Shown here: piece by piece, positions 17,155 through 30,810 of the stretch | Numbering within the stretch: position 1 is the stretch's first letter | Layout of the letters: every line of letters begins with the position of its first letter | Assembly (NCBI RefSeq): GCF_900119915.1 | Contig: NZ_LT635455.1 | Coordinates: 682,001-746,000 of the forward strand | Source of the DNA: Olsenella timonensis | Lineage (GTDB): Bacteria; Actinomycetota; Coriobacteriia; Coriobacteriales; Atopobiaceae | DNA length: 64,000 bases | Reading direction: 5' to 3' | Translations under genes and position numbers: made by a program | The notes under the pieces: model-generated | The model's database searches: none | Seen by the model: only the letters and a program-made list of their open reading frames with translations | What the model was told of the DNA's origin: nothing

Positions 17155-17329
17155 CCCGTCTGACGCACATGTGTTCCGACTGAGGATTTTTCGGGCGGTC
17201 TAGCTGCGGTGACACACTGCGCCGCAGATGGGGGCGGTGTCGCGCCGCAGCGCCGGGGCAGCGCCTTCGGCTATCCTAGGTGACAGCAATCCGACGCGGA
17301 CCCTCATCAAGCTGACGGGAGCTTGCCCC

Positions 17330-20300
17330 ATGGCATTCGTCCACCTGCACAACCACTCCGACTTCTCGATCCTCGACGCCGCGACGCGCGTCTCGGACAT
17401 GGTGGAGCGGGCGGTCGAGCTGGGCATGCCGGCGCTCGCCCTCACCGACCACGGCTACATGTTCGGCATCCCGGACTTCGACATGGCGTGCCGATCCTAC
17501 AACGACGCGCAGAAGGACATGGGCCAGTGGCGCCACGACCTCGAGTGCTTCCAGAAGGGCTGGGAGCTCGAGGAGCCCGCGCCCGACGCCCCCGACGCCG
17601 CCCCGCATGACCGCGTCCACGCCCAGTGGGCCTCCGACGTGCGCGTCTGGAACGAGACCCACGACCTCGAGGCCGTCCGCGCGAACCGTCCCTCCCTGCT
17701 CATCAAGCCGATCTTTGGCTGCGAGGCCTACTTCATCACCGACGACTGCATCGAGAAGGGCACCCGCCAGCACCGCTACCACCTGATCCTGCTGGCCAAG
17801 AACGAGACCGGCTACGTCAACCTCATGAAAATGATGAGCGAGGCCGCGTCGGGCGACATGTTCTACTACTACCCGCGCACCACGCTCGACATGCTGCGCC
17901 GCTACCACGAGGGCATCATCTGCACCTCGGCGTGCGTCTCCGGCATCATCCCGCGCATGTACTTCGACGGCCGCCCCGACGAGGCGCGCCGCTGGGCCCT
18001 CACCTACAAGGAGATCTTCGGCGACGACTTCTACCTCGAGGTCCAGGACCACGGCCTGGCCGACCCGGCATGGGGGGGCTTCACCGACCGCACGCTCTCC
18101 GAGCAGATCGTGCGCCTGGGCGCCGAGCTCGGCATCAAGGTCGTCGCCACCAACGACAACCACTACCTCACGCGCGACGACGCGCCCACCCAGGACGTCC
18201 TGTCCTGCATCGGCACCGCCTCGCGCCTGGACGACGAGAACCGCAAGCGCATGACGGGCACCGAGTTCTACCTCAAGAGCGAGGATGAGATGCGCGAGCT
18301 CTTCTCGTGGGCGCCCGAGGTCGTCGACAACACGCTCGAGGTCGCCGAGAAGTGCAACTACGAGCTCGACTGGACGCACATGTACCTCCCCAAGTTCCCG
18401 GACCTCGAGCCCGGGGAGACCTCGGAGGAGCGCTTCCGCAAGGAGTGCGAGGAGGGCCTCGCCCGCCGCTACGGCGACGACTGGCGCGAGCTCACGGTCG
18501 GCGGCGAGAACGTGCGCGAGCGCTTTGAGTACGAGTACAAGGTCATCTGCGAGAAGGGCTTCGCCGACTACTTCCTGATCGTCCAGGAGTACGTGCGCTG
18601 GGCCAAGAGGAACGGCATCGGCGTCGGCCCCGGGCGAGGCTCGGCGGCGGGCGCCATCGTGGCCTACGCGATGGACATCACCACGTTCGACCCGCTCGAG
18701 AACGGCCTCATGTTCGAGCGCTTCCTCTCCCCGCAGCGCTCCGAGATGCCCGACATCGACATGGACTTCGACGACGAGCGCCGCCTCGAGGTCGTGGAGC
18801 ACGTCCGCCAGCTCTACGGCCCCGAGCGCGTCTGCCACGTCATCACCTACTCCACGATCAAGGCCAAGCAGGCCATCAACGACGCGGCGCGCGTGCTGGG
18901 GTTCCCCGTCTGGCAGGGCCAGAAGCTCTCCAAGATGCTCACCAACGACCCCAAGCTCACGCTCGGCAACGCCCTGCACAAGAGCGAGAAGCACCCCGAC
19001 CAGTACTCGCCCGACTTCGAGGCGGCCTACACCGACGACGCCGACATGCGCCGCATCATCGACGCCGCCCTCTCGATCGAGGGGCTCCACCGCGGCGAGG
19101 GCGTCCACGCCTGCGCCGTGCTGATCACGCCCACGCCCGTCAACGACCACGTCCCCACCAAGGTCGACACCAAGGGCGGCGTCGAGATCACCCAGTACGA
19201 GGGCCACTCGGTCGCTGACATGGGCCTGCTCAAGATGGACTTCCTGGGCCTGCGCACCCTGACGGTCATCTCCAAGGCGCTCGCCAACATAAAGGCCAAC
19301 TACGGCATCGACATCAACGTCGACGAGATCCCCTTCGACGACCCGGAGATCTTCAGGCTCATGCGCGAGGGCCGCACCGCCGGCGTCTTCCAGATCGAGT
19401 CCGCGGGCATGACCTCCACGATCAAGAACATGCGGCCGACCGAGTACAAGCAGGTCGTGGCTCTTATCGCCCTCTACCGACCGGGCCCGCTCGGCGCCGG
19501 CATGGTCACGAGCTACATCAACCGCATGAACGGTCGCGAGGAGGCCGTCTCCTACGACCCGCGCCTCGACGACATCCTGGGCGAGACCTACGGCACCATG
19601 GTCTACCAGGAGCAGGTCATGAAGATCTCGATGAAGATGTCGGGCTTCTCGGCGGGCGAGTCGGACAGCCGCATCAGAAAGCCCGTGGCCAAGAAGAAGA
19701 TCAAGCTCCTCACCTCCACGGTGTTCCACTGGGACGACGGCAAGGACGAGACGACCTACGACCACTGGATGAACGGCGCCGTCACCAACGGCTACACCAA
19801 GGAAATCGCCCAGCGCATCTGGGACGACGTCCTGGAGTTCGCGTCGTACGCGTTCAACAAGAGCCACTCGGCGGGCTACGCCATCCTCGTCATGCAGACG
19901 GCGTGGCTCAAGGCCCACTACCCCAAGGAGTACATGGCGTCGGTGCTCACGTCCTACATGGGCAAGACCGACAAGATCGTCCACTACGTCACGGCCTACC
20001 GCCACGAGGGCGTCGCCATCCTCCCGCCCGACATCAACGAGTCCGGCCGCGACTTCACGGCCGTCCCCGAGGGCGTGCGCTTCGGCTTTGCCGGCATCCG
20101 CGGCGTGGGCGAGGGCGTGGGCGAGGCCATCATGGAGGAGCGCGAGAAGAACGGGCCCTTCAGGAACCTCCACGACTTCGTCGACCGCATGGACACGGCC
20201 CAGGCCAACCGCCGCGTGGTCGAGGCCCTGATCTGCTCGGGCGCCTTCGACTCGACGGGCTACACGCGCATGCAGCTCATGCGCTTCGTCGACAAGACCA

Positions 20301-21160
20301 ACCCCGAGAACATCATCGACGCGGCCACGCGCCGCCAGAAGGTGCGCGCGAGCGGGCAGATATCGCTCTTCGACCTCTTTGGCGACGTGGAGGGCTCCGG
20401 CTTCGAGGAGGAGGTCCCCGAGCCCGACGGCGTGGAGTGGGACCGCTCGGTCAAGCTCGCGAAGGAGCACGAGGTCCTCGGCCTCTACGTCTCCGACCAC
20501 CCGCTGCGCCCCTACGAGTACGCGCTCGCCAAGAACCGCGACTACACGGTCGCCGACATCGAGGTGGCGGAGGAGTACGCCGACGCATCGGGCGCCGTCC
20601 ACGAGCGCTTCAGGGTGCCCGAGGGAAAGGTCATCCGCCTCGCCGGCATGGTCTCGGCCGTGCAGAAGAAGACCACCAAGAACGGCGACTCCATGGCCAT
20701 CGTCACGCTGGAGGACATGGAGGGCGAGGTCACGCTCGTCGTCTTCCCCAAGCTCTACAAGAAGTGCGCCGCCACGCTCGCCGGCCAGGTCGACGAGGAG
20801 ACGGGCGAGAGCGCGGGCGACGTCTTCGTGAAGGTGGAGGGCAAGCTCGAGCGATCCGACCGCGGCAACCAGATAATCTGCATGGCCGTGGAGCCGCTCG
20901 TCCTGGACGAGAAGTCCAACCGCCCCAAGGTCCTTGAGGTCAACATCCCGGCGGCCCTGCTCACGCGCCCCTACATGGACAGCCTCGGCGAGGTGCTCGG
21001 GCGCTACCCCGGCCTCGACCATGTGGAGCTGCGCGTGGAGGCCACCTCCGGCGACGTGATGCGCATGGAGCTGCCCTGTCGCATCGACGCGCGCAATATG
21101 GTCCTTCTCGCCGAGATGGTCGACCTCGTAGGCCGTCAGGGCAAGGTGCTCGTGGCGTAG
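17330..21160 (+). CDS. dnaE: DNA polymerase III alpha subunit
   Basis: The ATG at 17330 (GGGAG upstream) gives 1276 residues. The N-terminal PHP domain opens with FVHLHNHSDFSILDAA; the polymerase core has GPGRGSAAGAIVAYA and the catalytic PDIDMDFDDERR; tandem HhH and an OB-fold lie C-terminally. Compared with typical DnaE, the PHP domain carries an insertion of roughly 60-70 residues (about residues 60-125) between FDMACRSYNDAQK and KPIFGCEAYF. The insertion is rich in Pro, Asp and Trp. The 230-base gap upstream holds the preceding terminator and a small CTGCGG/CCGCAG dyad. It is convergent with the next gene, 11 bases away. Confidence 0.95.
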   Translation: MAFVHLHNHSDFSILDAATRVSDMVERAVELGMPALALTDHGYMFGIPDFDMACRSYNDAQKDMGQWRHDLECFQKGWELEEPAPDAPDAAPHDRVHAQWASDVRVWNETHDLEAVRANRPSLLIKPIFGCEAYFITDDCIEKGTRQHRYHLILLAKNETGYVNLMKMMSEAASGDMFYYYPRTTLDMLRRYHEGIICTSACVSGIIPRMYFDGRPDEARRWALTYKEIFGDDFYLEVQDHGLADPAWGGFTDRTLSEQIVRLGAELGIKVVATNDNHYLTRDDAPTQDVLSCIGTASRLDDENRKRMTGTEFYLKSEDEMRELFSWAPEVVDNTLEVAEKCNYELDWTHMYLPKFPDLEPGETSEERFRKECEEGLARRYGDDWRELTVGGENVRERFEYEYKVICEKGFADYFLIVQEYVRWAKRNGIGVGPGRGSAAGAIVAYAMDITTFDPLENGLMFERFLSPQRSEMPDIDMDFDDERRLEVVEHVRQLYGPERVCHVITYSTIKAKQAINDAARVLGFPVWQGQKLSKMLTNDPKLTLGNALHKSEKHPDQYSPDFEAAYTDDADMRRIIDAALSIEGLHRGEGVHACAVLITPTPVNDHVPTKVDTKGGVEITQYEGHSVADMGLLKMDFLGLRTLTVISKALANIKANYGIDINVDEIPFDDPEIFRLMREGRTAGVFQIESAGMTSTIKNMRPTEYKQVVALIALYRPGPLGAGMVTSYINRMNGREEAVSYDPRLDDILGETYGTMVYQEQVMKISMKMSGFSAGESDSRIRKPVAKKKIKLLTSTVFHWDDGKDETTYDHWMNGAVTNGYTKEIAQRIWDDVLEFASYAFNKSHSAGYAILVMQTAWLKAHYPKEYMASVLTSYMGKTDKIVHYVTAYRHEGVAILPPDINESGRDFTAVPEGVRFGFAGIRGVGEGVGEAIMEEREKNGPFRNLHDFVDRMDTAQANRRVVEALICSGAFDSTGYTRMQLMRFVDKTNPENIIDAATRRQKVRASGQISLFDLFGDVEGSGFEEEVPEPDGVEWDRSVKLAKEHEVLGLYVSDHPLRPYEYALAKNRDYTVADIEVAEEYADASGAVHERFRVPEGKVIRLAGMVSAVQKKTTKNGDSMAIVTLEDMEGEVTLVVFPKLYKKCAATLAGQVDEETGESAGDVFVKVEGKLERSDRGNQIICMAVEPLVLDEKSNRPKVLEVNIPAALLTRPYMDSLGEVLGRYPGLDHVELRVEATSGDVMRMELPCRIDARNMVLLAEMVDLVGRQGKVLVA

Positions 21161-21171
21161 GGGGGCGCGGC

Positions 21172-21756
21172 CTAGGGGCGCGGCAGACCGCGCAGCCAGG
21201 CGAGGTAGGCGGCGGCGCTCTCCTCGAGCTCGTCGTCGGTGAGGCCCCCCTCGGTGCCAAAGAGCGCGAACGGCTCGGCCGCGCAGGTCGCGCCGACGTA
21301 GTTGGCCGTCGCACGGAAGGGGACGATCACCTCGCTCGGCGTGAAGCCGACGGCGCCCTCGCGGCGATAGTTGGCCTCGACGTCGCCGGCGCTCATGGCC
21401 ACGGCAAATCGCTTCCCCGCGAGCATGCGCCCGGGCTCGCCGGGCCTCGCCGCCTCGCTCCCGTAGGCCCAGCCGAGCCCGTAGACCTCGTCGGTCCAGG
21501 TGCGCAGCAGCGCCGGGGCGCTGTACCAGTAGACCGGGAACTGGAAGACGATCGTGTCGTGCGTGGCGAGCGCGGCGCGCTCCGCCTCGACGTCCCCCTC
21601 GCCGAGCGTGCCGGCGGGGTAGAGCGCGTAGAGGTCGCGCACGACGAACTCGTCCGGGTGCGCGGCGAGCTCGCGGGCCCAGCGCCGGTTGACGCGGCTC
21701 GTGCCGGACAGGTCGGGGTGGGCGACGATCACGAGCGTGCGCGGGTCTGCGGACAT
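21172..21756 (-). CDS. Flavodoxin-like NAD(P)H oxidoreductase (KefF/MdaB-like)
   Basis: The ATG at 21756 is chosen because AAGGGAG precedes it; an upstream in-frame ATG exists at 21807. The 194-residue protein begins TLVIVAHPDLSGTSRVNRRW and contains FQFPVYWYSAPALLRTWTDE and the GKRFAVAMSAG segment, the hallmarks of flavodoxin-2/NQO-like FMN or FAD quinone reductases. It probably reduces quinones or other electrophiles. It is transcribed alone, divergent from the gene at 21941. Confidence 0.85.
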   Translation of the reverse strand: MSADPRTLVIVAHPDLSGTSRVNRRWARELAAHPDEFVVRDLYALYPAGTLGEGDVEAERAALATHDTIVFQFPVYWYSAPALLRTWTDEVYGLGWAYGSEAARPGEPGRMLAGKRFAVAMSAGDVEANYRREGAVGFTPSEVIVPFRATANYVGATCAAEPFALFGTEGGLTDDELEESAAAYLAWLRGLPRP

Positions 21757-21940
21757 GACGGCTCCCTTCGTCGGGCAGCGGATGCGTGCGCTCCACCGTT
21801 TTACCATTCCCGGGCGACGCCCGCGCCCCTCGGCTTAGCGAAGGGCCCAAAGGGGTACGAGAGACGCGGCGGAGGGCCGGGGGCGCCGGGCGGGGCGGCT
21901 GTGCGACAATGAGGGGGCGAGAAGGACGAGAGGGGAGCAG

Positions 21941-23773
21941 ATGAGGATTGCGATCGCGCAGGTCGCCACGCGGGCGGGAGACTTCGAGGCGACGGCCGAC
22001 CGGATGGTCGAGATGTCCCGCCGCGCCGCGGACGCCGGGGCCGACCTGCTGGTGTTTCCGGCGGCGGCGCTCTGTGGGGTCACGCCGGTGCCGCGGTCGG
22101 ACCACGAGGGGTTCCTGCTCGACCTCATGGAGTGCCTGCTGCGCCTGATCGACGAGCTCGCGTGCCCGTGCCTGGTCCCCGTGCTGATCGACGCCGACGA
22201 GACGGCGCTGCCCGAGGCCCTGCTCGTCGACGGGGGGGAGGTCAGGCCCGTGCGCCTCGCGGCTCGCCTCGAGGCGATGGCGTCGGGCGACGAGGACGCA
22301 CAGGCCGTCGACGCCCTGTGCGAGCTGCCCTTCCGCGGCGCCCGGCTCGGTGTCGCCTTCACCTACGACGACCTCGACGCCTACGACGACTACGACTACG
22401 ACGTCGACGTGATCGTGTTCCTCTCGGGCTACGGGTTTGCCGTCGACGACCCGTCGAGCGCGCTCGGCACCTCGCTCACGGAGGGGCGCTTCCTCGCCGA
22501 CGCCGAGGCGACGGGCGCCTGGATCGTGGGCGTGGGGTCGCTCGGCTGCTACGACACGCAGGTCTTCTGTGGGTCGAGCTTCGTGCTCGCGCCCTGGGGC
22601 GAGCTGGCGGCGCAGGCCCCCACGTTCGAGGAGGACCTGCTCGTCTGCGACGTGGACCCCTCGGCCGAGGGGCCGCTCTCCGACCCCGTGACGCCGGAGG
22701 TGTACGACGCGCCGCTCATGACCTGGGGCGCGCTCGGGATCGGCCTCTCGTCGCTCGTCCGGGAGACGGGCTCGACCGGAGCCTGCGTCGCGGTGACGGG
22801 CGAGCTCGCGCCGATGCTCGCGGCGACGCTGGCCGTCGACGCCCTCGGCCCCACCAACGTGAGCGCCGTCGTGGCGCAGGGGACGGGCCCCGAGCGCGAC
22901 GCAGACGCCCTGGCGCTCGTGCGCGCGCTGCGCCTCGCCGACGACGACGTGGAGCTCGTCGACGTGGGGGGCGCCGCAGACCCGGACGCCGCGCACGACC
23001 TGCTCGCCTGTCGCCTCGCCGCGCTCGCGCGCCGCACGGGCCGCGTCCCGCTCGGCACGCTCGACAAGACCGGGCGCGCGCTCGAGGACGCGCCGGTGCG
23101 GGCGGGGGTGGCGCGCGTCGAGCCCTTCGCCGACGTCTATCGCTCAGACCTGCTCGCGCTCGCGCGCACGCGCGCCGCGATTTCTCCGGTCATCCCCCCG
23201 GCGGCGCTCGCGCGCTTCGACGTCCCCGACGTGGCGGGCGAGGGCGGCCCCGACTCCGCCGAGGTCCGGCTCGGCCTCGTCGACCTGGTGCTCTCGAGCC
23301 ACCTCGAGTGGGAGCTCCCCGTCTCCGACATCGTCGCCGAGCGCGGCCATGCCGAGGAGGTCGCCGCCATCGTGAGCCGCCTGCACGACCTCGAGGCGTC
23401 GCGCCCGGCCCGCCCGCTCTCGCCCACGCTCTCCTCGCGCACGCTCGACGAGGCGCGCCTCGCGACGGGGCTCGCCTGGCGCGACCGCCCGCGGGACGAG
23501 CGCGAGCGCCTGGAGGCGCGCGTCGGGGAGCTCGCCGACGCCGACGGCGGCCCCGCCCGCCCGGCTCCGTCGGGCTCCGCCGAGCCCGGAGGCGCCCCGA
23601 CGGAGCCTCCCGAGGGGGAGATCCGCGACCTCATGGGCTACCTGCGCGACTTCTCGGCGGGCGGCGCGTTCTCCTCGATGGGCGGGTCGCAGCGCCCGGA
23701 GGCGGGCGGACGGCACGAGGGCGGGACGCACCCGAGCGCGCCCTCCTGGAACGGGCCCTTCTCCGAGAACTGA
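21941..23773 (+). CDS. NAD synthetase (NadE)-like two-domain protein with lost catalytic motifs
   Basis: The 610-residue protein follows glutamine-dependent NadE in layout: an N-terminal nitrilase-fold amidase (about 1-245) and a C-terminal synthetase fold (about 260-510), then a disordered Pro/Gly tail. Sequence neighbourhoods align (ADLLVFPAAALCG, FEEDLLVCDVD, AATLAVDALGPTNVS, FADVYRSDLLALAR). The nitrilase catalytic Glu is Ala (FPAAA for FPELA), the Cys of ICEDLW is replaced (FTYDDLD), the usual Lys is not seen, and the ATP loop SGGxDS is TGELAP. It is therefore probably not an active NAD synthetase. ATG follows GAGGGGAGCAG. RuvCAB follow after 55 bases, from their own promoter. Confidence 0.75.
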   Translation: MRIAIAQVATRAGDFEATADRMVEMSRRAADAGADLLVFPAAALCGVTPVPRSDHEGFLLDLMECLLRLIDELACPCLVPVLIDADETALPEALLVDGGEVRPVRLAARLEAMASGDEDAQAVDALCELPFRGARLGVAFTYDDLDAYDDYDYDVDVIVFLSGYGFAVDDPSSALGTSLTEGRFLADAEATGAWIVGVGSLGCYDTQVFCGSSFVLAPWGELAAQAPTFEEDLLVCDVDPSAEGPLSDPVTPEVYDAPLMTWGALGIGLSSLVRETGSTGACVAVTGELAPMLAATLAVDALGPTNVSAVVAQGTGPERDADALALVRALRLADDDVELVDVGGAADPDAAHDLLACRLAALARRTGRVPLGTLDKTGRALEDAPVRAGVARVEPFADVYRSDLLALARTRAAISPVIPPAALARFDVPDVAGEGGPDSAEVRLGLVDLVLSSHLEWELPVSDIVAERGHAEEVAAIVSRLHDLEASRPARPLSPTLSSRTLDEARLATGLAWRDRPRDERERLEARVGELADADGGPARPAPSGSAEPGGAPTEPPEGEIRDLMGYLRDFSAGGAFSSMGGSQRPEAGGRHEGGTHPSAPSWNGPFSEN

Positions 23774-23811
23774 CGCCCCGCGCCGGTTGTGGTAGCATAG
23801 AACGGACGTTC
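23770..23811 (+). promoter_or_regulatory. ruvCAB promoter with LexA-type SOS box
   Basis: CTGACG (23770-23775) and TAGCAT (23793-23798), 17 bases apart, form a candidate promoter overlapping the preceding stop. Immediately downstream, GAACGGACGTTC (23800-23811) fits the Gram-positive/actinobacterial LexA consensus GAAC-RNRY-GTTC exactly. Position over the start site fits repression by LexA and induction by DNA damage. Confidence 0.65.
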
Positions 23812-23828: not shown

Positions 23829-24335
23829 ATGGTCATTCTCGGCATAGACCCGGGCCTGGCCCACACGGGCTGGGGCGTCGTGGAGACGCGCGGGTCGGCA
23901 TGTCGAGCGCGTGCGTACGGCTGCGTGACCACGACCGCCGGCGAGCCGATCGACGTGCGCCTCGGCAGGATCTGCCGCACCCTGGCAGACGTCATCGAGC
24001 GCTACGGCCCCACCGAGCTCGCCATCGAGAGCATCTACTTCGGGGAGAACACCAAGTCCGCCATCGCCACCGCCCAGGCGCGCGGCGCGGCGATCGTGGC
24101 CTGCTCGACGGCGGGCCTCAAGGTGGGGGAGTACACCCCCATGCAGATAAAGCAGGCCGTCGTCGGCACCGGTGCGGCAGACAAGCACCAGGTGGCGTAC
24201 ATGGTGAGGAGCGTGCTCGTGCTCGACCACGAGCCGCGCCCCGACCACGCCGCCGACGCGCTGGCGGCCGCCGTGTGTCACGCCAACGTCACCCGCACGA
24301 AGAGCCTGAGTGAGTCGAGGAGGGTCCTCACGTGA
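23829..24335 (+). CDS. ruvC: Holliday junction resolvase RuvC
   Basis: A 168-residue endonuclease that cuts Holliday junctions symmetrically. Catalytic acidic residues are visible in ILGIDPGLAHTGWGV (Asp), AIESIYFGENTKSA (Glu) and DHAADALA (the C-terminal acidic pair). The spacer segment MQIKQAVVGTGAADKHQV is typical. The stop overlaps the ruvA start. A LexA-type box lies 18 bases before the ATG. Confidence 0.95.
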   Translation: MVILGIDPGLAHTGWGVVETRGSACRARAYGCVTTTAGEPIDVRLGRICRTLADVIERYGPTELAIESIYFGENTKSAIATAQARGAAIVACSTAGLKVGEYTPMQIKQAVVGTGAADKHQVAYMVRSVLVLDHEPRPDHAADALAAAVCHANVTRTKSLSESRRVLT

Positions 24336-24964
24336 TAGTCCAGCTGAGCGGCACGCTTCTGGAGGTCACGCCGTCCCGCGTCGTGATGGACGTGGGGGGC
24401 GTGGGCTTTGAGCTCGGCGTCTCGTCCACCACCGCTGCCTCGCTGCCGCACGCGGGCGAGGCGGGCGTCACCGTCCTCGTGCGCATGATCGTCCGCGAGG
24501 ACGCGATGGAGCTCTACGGCTTTGCCACGCGGGAGGAGCGCGCGCTCTTCGACCAGCTGCGCGCGATCTCCGGGGTGGGCCCCAAGCTCGCGCTCTCCGT
24601 CCTCTCCACGTTCTCGCCCGGCGCGCTCGCGCAGGTCGTCGTTGGGCAGGACGCCGCGCGCATGGCGCAGGTCCCGGGCGTGGGCCGCAAGAAGGCGAGC
24701 CGCCTGCTCGTGGAGCTCTCCGACGTCTTCTCCAAGAACGCCGAGCTCAGAGGACTGGTCGGCCTCTCCGACCCCGACCAGTCGCTGCCGCTTCCCTCCG
24801 CCCCCTCCGGCGGCGTGGGGGCCGAGGCCACCGAGGCGCTCCTCTCCATGGGCTTCACGCCGCAGGAGGCCGAGCTCGCGCTCGAGGGCCATACGGAGGC
24901 CGGAGCCGTCACCATCGAGCAGGTGCTCGCCTACGCGCTCCGTCGCCTGGGGAGTGGTCGCTGA
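24332..24964 (+). CDS. ruvA: Holliday junction branch-migration subunit RuvA
   Basis: The GTG at 24332 overlaps the ruvC stop. The 210-residue protein has the N-terminal OB domain ([20 protein letters not shown]), two helix-hairpin-helix motifs ([15 protein letters not shown] and [16 protein letters not shown]) and a C-terminal helical domain III that contacts RuvB. RuvA tetramers hold the junction and load RuvB rings. Confidence 0.95.
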
Positions 24965-26016
24965 TGTGGGAGTCGAGCGAGAAGGACCTCTTCGCCGACG
25001 CGGCGTCGCGCCACGGCGCCCCGCGCGACGTCACGGGGGAGCTCACGGCGGACGACCTCGACCAGGACCGCACCCTGCGCCCGCGGACGCTCGACGAGTA
25101 CATCGGCCAGGAGCGCGTGCGCGAGAACCTGCGCGTGCTCATCCAGGCAGCGCGCGACCGCGGCGAGTCCCTCGACCACGTGATCTTCTCGGGCCCTCCG
25201 GGCCTCGGCAAGACCACGCTCGCCGGCATCGTGGCAAACGAGATGGGCGCCAAGATGCACACGACCTCCGGCCCGGCCATCGAGCGCGCCGGCGACCTCG
25301 CCGCCATCCTCACCAACCTCGAGGAGGGCGACGTCCTGTTCGTTGACGAGATACACCGCCTCAACCACCAGATCGAGGAGATCCTCTACCCTGCCATGGA
25401 GGACTTCTTCCTGGACATCGTGATCGGCAAGGGCCCGGCGGCGCGCTCGATCCGCATCGACGTCCCGCACTTCACGCTCGTGGGCGCGACCACGCGCACC
25501 GGCCTGCTCACGGGGCCGCTCCGCGACCGCTTCGGCATCTCGTATCGCCTGGACTACTACACCCCCGCCGAGCTCGCCGTCATCGTGGGCCGTTCGGCGC
25601 GCATCCTCGGCGTGGGCATCGACCCCGAGGGCGCCGCGGAGATCGCCTCGCGCTCGCGCGGCACGCCGCGCCTCGCCAACCGCCTGCTCAAGCGCGTTCG
25701 CGACTACGCCCAGGTCAAGCGCGAGGGATCCATCACCGCGGACGTGGCGGCGGAGGCGCTCGAGTTCTTCGAGATAGACGCCCTCGGCCTGGACACCATG
25801 GACGTCCGCATCCTCACGGCCCTCTGCGAGACGTTCCGCGGCCGGCCCGTGGGCCTCACCACGGTGGCGAGCGCCGTATCGGAGGACCCGGCGACGCTCG
25901 AGGACGTCTACGAGCCCTACCTCCTGCAGTGCGGCCTCATCGTCCGCACCCCGCAGGGGCGCCAGGCGACCCTCGCGGCCTTCGACCACCTCGGCCTCGA
26001 GCCGCCGGCGCGCTAG
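24964..26016 (+). CDS. ruvB: Holliday junction branch-migration ATPase RuvB
   Basis: A 350-residue AAA+ motor; its ATG overlaps the ruvA stop. Walker A is [12 protein letters not shown], Walker [11 protein letters not shown], sensor 1 LVGATTRTG, arginine finger region GPLRDRFG; a winged helix forms the C-terminus. N-terminal [15 protein letters not shown] is the family signature. The 156-base convergent gap to the PfkB-like gene holds a CCTTCTCGCC motif (26034-26043) but no clear terminator hairpin. Confidence 0.96.
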
Positions 26017-28986: not shown

Positions 28987-29904
28987 CTAGGCGGCCTCCC
29001 GAAGGGCCTGCTCCCGGAACTCCACCGGGGTCAGGCCCTTCAGCCTGACCTGGCGCCTCACGTGGTTCCAGTGGTGGATGTAGGCCTCGAGGTCCGCCTT
29101 GAACTCCTCGAACGTGTCCCAGTCGCGCCCGCGGAGGAACTCGTCCTTGATGTGCCCGAACACCTGCTCGGTGGCGCCGTTGTCGATGCAGTTGCCCTTG
29201 CGCGACATGCTCTGGGCGATCCCCATCCCCTCGAGCGCGGCGACGAACTCGGCGTGCTGGTACTGCCAGCCCATGTCCGTCTGCATGACCGGGCTGGCCC
29301 ACCCGGGCTTGGCCTCCGCGAGCATGGAGAGCATCTCGCGCTGCTGCTCGAGGTCGGGGTGCTCCGAGATCGAGTGCGCCACGATCTCCTTGCTCCCGAA
29401 GTCGTACACCGGCGCGAGGTAGGCCTTGCCGAAGGAGAGCCTGAACTCGGTGACGTCGGTGCCCATCTTCTGCCACGGGCCGTCCGCGGAGAAGTCGCGC
29501 CCGAGCACGTTCTCGAAGGTCTCGCCGACGACGCCCCTGTACGAGTTGTACCTGTGGTAGTCGGTCTCGCGGCGGATGCCGCAGCGCAGGCCCATCTCGC
29601 GCATCATCTTGAGGACGGTCTTGTCGGCTACGCGGGCGCCGTCCACGGCCCGCAGCTCCATCGCGACCTGGCGGTGGCCGACGCCGTTCGGGAGCCTCCC
29701 GAAGATCTCGGCGACCCTGTCCCGGAGCTCCGGCCTGGTCGGGGCCTTGGGGTGCGCGAGCGCGTAATAGTACGTGGACCTGGCGAGGCCGGCGGCCTCC
29801 AGCAGGTCGGCCAGGTCGTGCCCCAGCCCTGAAAGCTCGGCGACCGCTAGGGCCTTCTCCCGCCTCGGGAGCGCAGCTCCGCCTTCAGGGCTATCGATTT
29901 TTTT
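28987..29904 (-). CDS. IS3-family transposase OrfB (DDE catalytic part, made by -1 frameshift)
   Basis: The frame has no good start of its own. After the slippery A7 run the -1 frame reads KKIDSPEGG and continues for about 300 residues. An HTH_21 segment (LARSTYYYAL) is followed by the integrase core with Asp in GTDVTEF, Asp in QTDMGWQYQHAEF and Glu in NGATEQVFGHIKDE: the DD(35)E triad is intact. The fused OrfAB is expected to be the active transposase. Confidence 0.9.
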   Translation of the reverse strand, partial: KKIDSPEGGAALPRREKALAVAELSGLGHDLADLLEAAGLARSTYYYALAHPKAPTRPELRDRVAEIFGRLPNGVGHRQVAMELRAVDGARVADKTVLKMMREMGLRCGIRRETDYHRYNSYRGVVGETFENVLGRDFSADGPWQKMGTDVTEFRLSFGKAYLAPVYDFGSKEIVAHSISEHPDLEQQREMLSMLAEAKPGWASPVMQTDMGWQYQHAEFVAALEGMGIAQSMSRKGNCIDNGATEQVFGHIKDEFLRGRDWDTFEEFKADLEAYIHHWNHVRRQVRLKGLTPVEFREQALREAA

Positions 29905-30362
29905 AGGTACGCCACCTGCGCCTCGAGCTTGCGGACGCGCTCCTCGAGCTCCTGCTCGCGGGTCCTCGGCGCGCCCGTCGCGCCGGACCCCCTCGGCCTG
30001 CCCCTGGGCCTCGGCCTGAGCGCCTCGGCGCCGCCCTCGCGGTACAGCCTGCACCACTGCCTCAGCGGCGTCGCGCTCGCGATGCCGAAGCGCTCCATCG
30101 CCTCGGGCCCGGCCATCCCGCCGTCGACCACGGCGCGCGCCGCGGCGACCTTGGTCTCGTAGTCGTACCTCGCCTGTTTCCCGCCCATCTTGAGGAGCAG
30201 CTCCGTCCCGCCGGCCCTGTACTTCTCCAGCCATCTTCTCACGGCCTCGTGGGGCACGCCAAGCGCGGCGCCGATCGCGCGGCGGCCGAGGCCCGCGTCG
30301 TGGAGCCGGGCGGCCTCGAGGCGGAGCGACTCGTCGTGCCTGCATCTCAGATCCAATGCCAT
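29847..30362 (-). CDS. IS3-family transposase OrfA
   Basis: A 171-residue DNA-binding protein with two helix-turn-helix units (GLGRRAIGAALGVPHEAVRRWL near residue 25, cited here by position 25-46, and GPEAMERFGIASATPLRQW), a basic linker rich in RPRGRPRG, and a C-terminal leucine-zipper segment (EQELEERVRKLEAQVAYLKK). It recognises the IS ends. The frame runs through seven consecutive A residues at 29904-29898, where a -1 shift leads into OrfB. Confidence 0.9.
   Translation of the reverse strand: MALDLRCRHDESLRLEAARLHDAGLGRRAIGAALGVPHEAVRRWLEKYRAGGTELLLKMGGKQARYDYETKVAAARAVVDGGMAGPEAMERFGIASATPLRQWCRLYREGGAEALRPRPRGRPRGSGATGAPRTREQELEERVRKLEAQVAYLKKSIALKAELRSRGGRRP
29898..29904 (-). promoter_or_regulatory. 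Programmed -1 frameshift site (A7) of the IS
   Basis: On the minus strand the codons CTA AAA AAA TCG of OrfA become AAA AAA ATC in the OrfB frame. The A AAA AAA heptamer is the standard slippery sequence of IS3-family elements. I did not resolve a stimulatory hairpin. Confidence 0.75.
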
Positions 30363-30483
30363 AAAAAGCCTCCCATTCCTCGGACTTCAATTTCCATGTC
30401 CAAGAAATGGGAGGCAGTTCAGCCCGAGGGTGGGGCCAGGAGGCGGGCAGGGTTGGCTCCAGAGAGATTGAGAGGGGGTAAGC

Positions 30484-30810
30484 ATGGCAGACAAGAAGTA
30501 CATCGTCGGTGTCACCGCATGCCAGATTGGCATCGCCCACACCTTCATGGCGGCTGATTCTCTTAAAACCGCTATCGAGGCCGCAGGCTGCGAGGCAAAG
30601 ATCGAGACGCAGGGCGCCACGGGCATGGAGAACGTGATCACCGAGGAGGATCTTGCTCGTGCGGACGCGGCCATCATCGCTGCTGACGTCAAGATCAAGA
30701 ACCCTGAGCGCTTTGATCCCATTCCTACGCTCAGCTGCAAGACGAAAGAAGTCATGACGGTTGAGACCGCTGCTTCGGTCGTGGAAGAAGTATTGGAGGC
30801 AATTAGCTAA
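30484..30810 (+). CDS. PTS fructose-type EIIB
   Basis: A 108-residue EIIB with the phosphorylated cysteine in VGVTACQIGIAHTFMAA (Cys13), the exact EIIB-Fru signature. GAGAGGGGGTAAGC precedes the ATG. The stop overlaps the EIIC start (TAATG). No EIIA is encoded in this operon; the nearest fructose-type EIIA is at 43094. Its promoter region is separated from it by the IS at 28946-30421. Confidence 0.93.
   Translation: MADKKYIVGVTACQIGIAHTFMAADSLKTAIEAAGCEAKIETQGATGMENVITEEDLARADAAIIAADVKIKNPERFDPIPTLSCKTKEVMTVETAASVVEEVLEAIS

Follow-up and report, generated by a model that had tools for sequence, protein, structure and literature searches.

We analysed a 64-kb stretch of DNA (64,000 nt; hereafter the window) that corresponds to positions 682001-746000 of the single contig (C1) of the Olsenella timonensis genome (2.18 Mb, 99.25% complete). 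The window contains, at positions 21941-23773, a gene encoding a NadE-like pseudoenzyme of 610 aa, designated here nadX, which was identified from its ORF, from Pfam and NCBIfam profiles, from a PDB sequence match and from an AlphaFold model. This gene and the other features described below lie on the plus strand unless indicated otherwise. The frame of nadX comprises 610 codons, from ATG to TGA, and is preceded, just 5′ of the ATG, by a purine-rich ribosome site, GAGAGGGGAGC, in agreement with the earlier description of an intact frame with a good ribosome site. The starts and N-terminal ends used throughout were picked by pattern, so the first residues of the proteins are less sure than the remainder.

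A promoter-like sequence, TGTGCGACAAT (21900-21910), is located upstream of nadX, where a generic sigma-70 scan detected no promoter; 28 of the 30 genus loci have the form TGTGNNACAAT before the gene. The usual upstream neighbour within the family is dnaE (17228-21160), encoding the alpha subunit of DNA polymerase III. In the window, a gene for a flavodoxin-fold oxidoreductase (21172-21807, minus strand) is placed in antisense orientation between dnaE and nadX. By tblastn this gene was detected in 8 of 73 loci, apparently from about five species, many of the loci covering only 1.5 kb upstream.

The nadX gene is followed by ruvC (23829-24335), ruvA (24332-24964) and ruvB (24964-26016). The place directly before ruvCAB, noted in the first inspection of the sequence, is real and conserved. 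In the family of the source genome (denoted f1), 37 of 40 loci have ruvCAB after nadX in the same orientation; of the three exceptions, L061 is inverted and L042 and L068 lack ruvC within the stretch covered, and all three keep the C-terminal tail described below. In a second family, f3, ruvC follows nadX in 14/14 loci and ruvB in 13, the stretch of the remaining one (L100) ending early; dnaE was observed upstream in 4/14. Among the 43 named loci, ruvC is found within 3 kb after nadX in every case and dnaE precedes it in 39, three of the other four ending at a contig edge. Farther downstream in the window there is an integrase-core transposase gene (rve, HTH_21) of an insertion sequence (28987-30540, minus strand), with a second, overlapping frame at 29847-30362.

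Between nadX and ruvC we found a conserved sequence, GAACGGACGTTC (23800-23811), which we take to be a LexA box of the Gram-positive type. The pattern GAACNNNNGTTC occurs in this intergenic position in 66 of 71 f1 loci and in all 14 f3 loci. It has one match in the window, with 0.65 expected by chance, so the evidence for the box lies in its conservation. In 86 loci, no exact GAACNNNNGTTC, which would mark a member of the SOS regulon, occurs in the sequence before nadX (up to 400 bases). Judging from these sites, ruvCAB look damage-inducible in f1 and f3 and are probably under a damage-controlled promoter of their own, with nadX outside that control. The position of the SOS-type box thus does not support shared transcription or control of nadX and ruvCAB.

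Fold and active sites of NadX

Comparison with protein families showed that NadX has the two-domain layout of glutamine-dependent NAD synthetases, as had been proposed from the sequence. It matches Pfam CN_hydrolase (3e-15) and, with 17.4 bits, falls below the 21-bit cut-off of Pfam NAD_synthase; its score against NCBIfam PRK13981 is 98.5 bits, the cut-off being 479. The best PDB match by sequence is 5kha, a glutamine-dependent NAD synthetase (1.1e-18). An AlphaFold model built with 44 sequences (pLDDT 84.3, pTM 0.83) is ordered over approximately residues 1-530, with pLDDT below 50 for residues 536-556 and 572-610 and a helix at 558-571. When this model was compared with known structures using Foldseek and VIA-align, NadE structures ranked first (3n05, E value 2.9e-29), and the predicted core of residues 1-517 superposes on 3n05 over 468 residues with Z 29.7 and an rmsd of 3.2.

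The catalytic residues of both domains have been lost. In alignment with canonical NadE, the Glu-Lys-Cys triad of the glutaminase (nitrilase) domain is replaced by Ala, Ala and Thr: (i) codon 41 (22061-22063) specifies Ala in place of Glu, (ii) residues 105-113 (22253-22279), which correspond to the stretch with the catalytic Lys, contain no Lys, and (iii) codon 141 (22361-22363) specifies Thr in place of Cys. The ATP loop of the synthetase domain, SGGIDS in canonical NadE, reads TGELAP in NadX (residues 286-291; 22796-22813). The replacements reported in the sequence-only reading (the amidase Glu and Cys, and TGELAP for SGGxDS) were thereby reproduced. Its further statement that no catalytic Lys is evident is true for the glutaminase site only, because the synthetase site has been retained in part: Lys376-Thr377 (23066-23071), a remnant of the NKSE loop, is present in 85/85 proteins (71 of f1 and 14 of f3). 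In NadX the Asn and Glu of this loop are replaced by Asp and Gly, and with the ATP loop also lost the protein does not qualify as an NH3-dependent NAD synthetase. Catalytic residues at shifted positions were ruled out by three alignments, and none was restored by alignment with NadE of known structure.

Of the 71 f1 and 14 f3 proteins, none has a complete SGGxDS or any of the three triad residues, whereas the glutaminase residues and SGGxDS are all retained in 6/6 canonical NadEs from other orders. Individual letters of the ATP loop persist in f1 to differing degrees (first Gly 61/71, last Ser 59/71, Asp 6/71), and the variants found among the dead forms include TGELAP, DGSLxS, DGTLSS and TGDLPS. 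Asp398 and Arg411 are conserved in all rows of two alignments (69/69 and 32/32), and Tyr400 also remains. In the N-terminal domain of the 85 proteins, Gln7, Trp194 and Ser213 are invariant, and Glu231 (83), Asp156 (80) and Asp170 (79) are nearly so; no Cys or Lys reaches 90% conservation in this domain. The best explanation of these replacements is that the body of NadX no longer makes NAD.

The search for a second, intact nadE in the same genome was successful. It encodes a protein of 653 aa (the region C1:1728035-1728610 falls within its gene), in which, read residue by residue, LPE (FPE-like), KTHIPTY, CED and SGGLDS are intact. Judged by its length, this protein is PRK02628-like. A frame of 650-1000 codons, distinct from nadX and matching NAD_synthase with E values of 6e-26 to 6e-32, was found in all f1 (22/22) and f3 (7/7) genomes searched.

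The conserved C-terminal tail

The strongest feature of NadX, which was missed in the sequence-only reading, is its C-terminus. Beyond the predicted fold, the protein carries a predicted tail helix, DLMGYLRDF (23627-23653), conserved above both flanking stretches, and terminates in the motif W-x-x-P-F-S-x-N-COOH (23747-23770), whose F, S and N are invariant in the loci read. These loci came from 30 of the 31 genomes of the genus, from 40 of the 102 matched genomes elsewhere in the family and from 14 of the f3 matches. An exact F-S-x-N end after a disordered linker was present in all 70 f1 loci first read, and one further f1 protein (L098) ends in GLFSNN. The same end was seen in 14/14 f3 proteins (e.g. 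FFSQN, FFSLN), while FSEN terminates the protein of all 43 named loci, many species of which are apparently shared with the other genomes read. The fragments of the genus genome G028 were outside this reading, and L060, which was omitted from the 69-row alignment for its N-terminus, ends in PFSEN. The share of rows equal to the reference is 0.13 and 0.24 in the linker columns, 0.53 in the helix stretch, 0.78 in the last eight columns and 1.00 for F, S and N.

This constraint acts on the protein, since the invariant residues are specified by synonymous codons (TTC or TTT for Phe, TCN or AGC for Ser, AAC or AAT for Asn). A cause at the DNA level, such as overlap with the ruvC promoter, was considered and rejected, given this codon variation and the varying distance to the SOS box. 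In a control set of 40 f1, 13 f3 and one f5 loci, F, S and N were found in 54/54 NadX proteins; in the same loci the last residue varies in DnaE (37), RuvC (51), RuvA (51) and RuvB (50). A Gly fourth from the end occurs in 50/51 RuvA proteins, so a single conserved residue near a protein end is not unusual. The end is also preserved in the highly divergent NadX of G047 (L205, 2142-5397; E value 2.3e-29), a frame of 1085 codons with a long acidic insert, which ends in NPFSIN and is followed by ruvC.

Within the source genome, PFSEN followed by a stop (with TCN serine codons) was found nowhere besides nadX. The looser DNA pattern FSxN-stop, also with TCN serine codons only, gave three matches, compared with four for a reversed control: (i) nadX, (ii) a membrane-like frame of 120 codons ending in FSGN and (iii) one match without an FSxN frame of 60 codons. 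With PFSEN-stop unique and FSGN ending one frame, these counts lend no support to FSxN as a general C-terminal tag.

Distribution, relatives and the probable order of losses

The query P0001 produced matches in all 31 genomes of the genus (in G028 split into two pieces on separate contigs) and in 133 of the 140 genomes of the family; addition of G047 by a profile raised the latter number to 134. A class-wide search matched 284/296 genomes, a total that includes canonical and short NadE. We infer that f3 is the Coriobacteriaceae (Collinsella-like) and f2 the Eggerthellaceae. In four family genomes without a match (G034, G040, G045, G063) the completeness is 57-82%. In a fifth, G039 (79% complete), nadX was not found beside ruvC or dnaE, though both of these are present; either a real loss or a missing contig may account for this. 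In G056, listed as 99% complete, none of nadX, ruvC and dnaE was found, and the stretch carrying them is probably missing or masked; joint loss of nadX and ruvC as a sign of a functional link was therefore dropped.

The ratio dN/dS of nadX among relatives is 0.046-0.395, i.e. below 0.4 in 24/24 close pairs, and that of ruvC is 0.012-0.246 in 14 of 15 pairs (14 pairs gave a ruvC). The gene is constrained, yet it evolves faster than ruvC and selection on it is weaker. Together with the conservation in two families, these values confirm the earlier view that nadX is kept under selection. Pseudogene decay is ruled out by the low ratios and by the presence of the gene in 134/140 genomes. NadX combines a retained fold (as predicted), lost catalytic residues and a gene under selection, as expected of a pseudoenzyme.

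The relatives of NadX in other families form an apparent series. Canonical NadEs of other orders end in NR[YF]xG and have no tail (6/6). The two proteins read from f4 and f2-g54 have a dead glutaminase site and an intact SGGIDS, and lack the tail. In f6, FPE and CED are absent from 21/21 proteins, SGG[IL]DS is present in 21/21 and NKSE, by a strict pattern, in 18/21; the 20 proteins with a stop all end in hydrophobic-x-x-Asn (FLDN, FLAN, ISAN, ILEN and others). No match was obtained in 4/33 f6 genomes, and some of the matches are weak. One f6 tail reads DLMGMLRDWERPEGWGWLDN, compared with DLMGYLRDF...WNGPFSEN in NadX, and the two are read, from this similarity, as being of common descent.

The family f5, to which L088 belongs, is mixed. 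The protein of G316 keeps SGGIDS and TGNKSE and ends in IFSKN. That of G388, recovered in two pieces on two contigs (L189 and L191), has AGDLDS and CDKT, ends in LFSKN and, by these motifs, is dead at both sites like the f1 and f3 forms; G387 gave a weak, unrelated match only. A tree of 44 rows (G388 excluded; L087 and L101 with untrimmed N-termini) separated f1 and f3 from the 11 other rows at 100/100, with G316 nearest. The tailed protein is the sole NadE-type match found in G316 and in G353 (f6), while G332 (f6) has a second one, of 300 codons. The f6 family (L101, L103, L170-L188) appears to use a glutaminase-dead NadE, which in G353 is the sole NAD synthetase found; with a dead glutaminase domain, ammonia would be the donor.

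Since glutaminase-dead, synthetase-intact relatives carry a related tail, the tail was probably gained before the synthetase was lost, which suggests that its job dates back to a stage at which the protein was an active NAD synthetase. The tail-less forms of f4 and f2-g54 make a single gain uncertain, as it would require later losses. The dead form of G388 within a mixed family indicates either repeated loss of the synthetase or a family label that does not track the gene.

Proposed role and comparison with known systems

The loss of both active sites in a gene that is kept, and always with the same end in the loci read, suggests that NadX works by binding another protein rather than by catalysis. 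We consider it somewhat probable (roughly 0.55) that NadX is a pseudoenzyme platform with a C-terminal docking peptide for another protein. The NadE-like body would serve as the folded platform, and the flexible linker would present the docking peptide, i.e. the helix LGxLRDF followed by W..PF-S-x-N-COOH, for recognition by that protein. Its origin may have involved four steps: (i) loss of the glutaminase site, with the synthetase still active, in an ancestor of the order, (ii) addition of the tail to a protein that was still an NAD synthetase, (iii) transfer of NAD synthesis to a PRK02628-like NadE, with decay of the synthetase site, and (iv) retention of the protein owing to the binding of a partner by its tail and body. 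The invariant end, the flexible linker and the lack of a conserved Cys or Lys in the N-terminal domain favour binding or scaffolding. Against a docking platform, the tail is modelled at low confidence and no candidate partner was found; the neighbours of the tailed forms of f5 and f6 (desulfoferrodoxin, D-Tyr-tRNA deacylase, an EamA transporter, a metallo-beta-lactamase fold protein and a histidine kinase) gave no hint of one. It had been suggested that the gene is kept for another role, perhaps sensing or scaffolding. With no catalytic residues restored and another NadE at hand this interpretation is supported, and for the role itself we infer a scaffold or sensor.

A related proposal, which we regard as tentative, is that NadX is an order-specific adaptor, an early NAD synthetase of the Coriobacteriales having gained the docking module for a second job before its catalytic sites decayed. 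The module would consist of the helix and of hydrophobic-x-x-Asn-COOH, with the FSxN end acting as the ligand of a receptor; after another NadE took over, the sites may have decayed, perhaps more than once, leaving the adaptor role alone. If true, this would represent a stepwise, traceable change from enzyme to scaffold via a moonlighting stage.

It is unlikely that the dead protein is a regulatory partner that enters mixed assemblies with, or controls, the other NadE or an NAD or nitrogen enzyme. Such a role would agree with the regular presence of another NadE-like frame, and NadE is already known to be regulated by proteins, e.g. by PII, which relieves the inhibition of NadE by NAD (PMC7196632). 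However, the intact NadE of the source genome belongs to a different subtype and is not a close paralogue, which makes mixed oligomers less natural, and the scanned genes beside nadX in the window are not NAD genes.

We think it quite unlikely that NadX is a ligand sensor, with the tail signalling that a nucleotide, pyrophosphate or NaAD has bound to what is left of the synthetase site. The remnants leave room for sensing: Lys376-Thr377, Asp398 and Arg411 lie in stretches that bind substrates in NadE, and the set of kept residues (Lys376, Thr377, Asp398, Tyr400, Arg411, Asp156, Asp170, Ser213 and Glu231) would be compatible with the binding of a ligand or with an altered activity. The ATP loop nevertheless varies among the dead forms, and the same residues could be retained for folding.

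A partner of DNA replication or of Holliday-junction processing, which would account for the conserved location of nadX after dnaE and ahead of ruvCAB, is improbable. The linkage to ruvC is strong in f1, f3 and the named loci, but the SOS-type box separates nadX from ruvC with none upstream of nadX, the gene has its own promoter-like site in the genus, and the three exceptional f1 loci, one inverted and two lacking ruvC within the stretch covered, still possess the tail. Moreover, in the three genomes tested (G316, G353 and G332) the tailed, synthetase-intact form lies on a contig other than that of ruvC. It is very improbable that NadX has acquired a new activity based on relocated residues, in spite of the kept (predicted) fold and the conserved Asp, Ser, Glu, Lys and Arg residues, given that every Cys and Lys in the N-terminal domains falls short of 90% conservation.

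Whichever protein would bind the docking platform, the doubly dead NadE homologue is real. It is an old, conserved protein that ends in an invariant peptide and has apparent intermediates among its relatives. Pseudoenzymes are often known as end points only. For NadX the surviving series comprises the intact tail-less enzyme, glutaminase-dead forms without and with a tail, and the fully dead form with a tail, which makes it possible to ask whether the loss of catalysis preceded or followed the gain of a binding role. The invariant C-terminus also makes the partner directly findable. Naming by domain may label NadX an NAD synthetase and lead to misleading metabolic models of Coriobacteriales. 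A literature search, in which most subscription papers were not covered, retrieved no paper on NAD synthetase in Coriobacteriia, as a pseudoenzyme or beside ruvC, and in a broader search (NadE, nitrilase pseudoenzymes, ruvC with Coriobacteriales genera) no title or beginning of an abstract described this protein. NAD synthetases have been classified in PMC3376133, a paper in which none of the terms inactive, degenerate, paralog and pseudogene occurs.

Among known systems, the nearest structures to NadX are glutamine-dependent NadEs of the PRK13981 type (3n05, 5kha and 4f4h), with which it shares the domain order, the predicted fold of residues 1-517 and core homology. Unlike these enzymes, it lacks the glutaminase residues and the ATP loop, scores under the family cut-offs and has about 80 additional C-terminal residues, mostly disordered in the model. 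The other NadE of the genome has two Pfam domains in common with NadX but differs in its intact catalytic motifs and its end (WLAELEAL, without FSxN). The relatives from f6 and G316, which belong to the same order, share the dead glutaminase and the hydrophobic-x-x-Asn tail and differ in their intact synthetase motifs. Hubs of the SSB type consist of a folded body, a disordered, variable linker and an invariant C-terminal tip. Their fold is unrelated to that of NadX and their tip sequence is different, but the same arrangement of a body, a variable linker and invariant last residues is recognizable in the sequence and predicted model of NadX.
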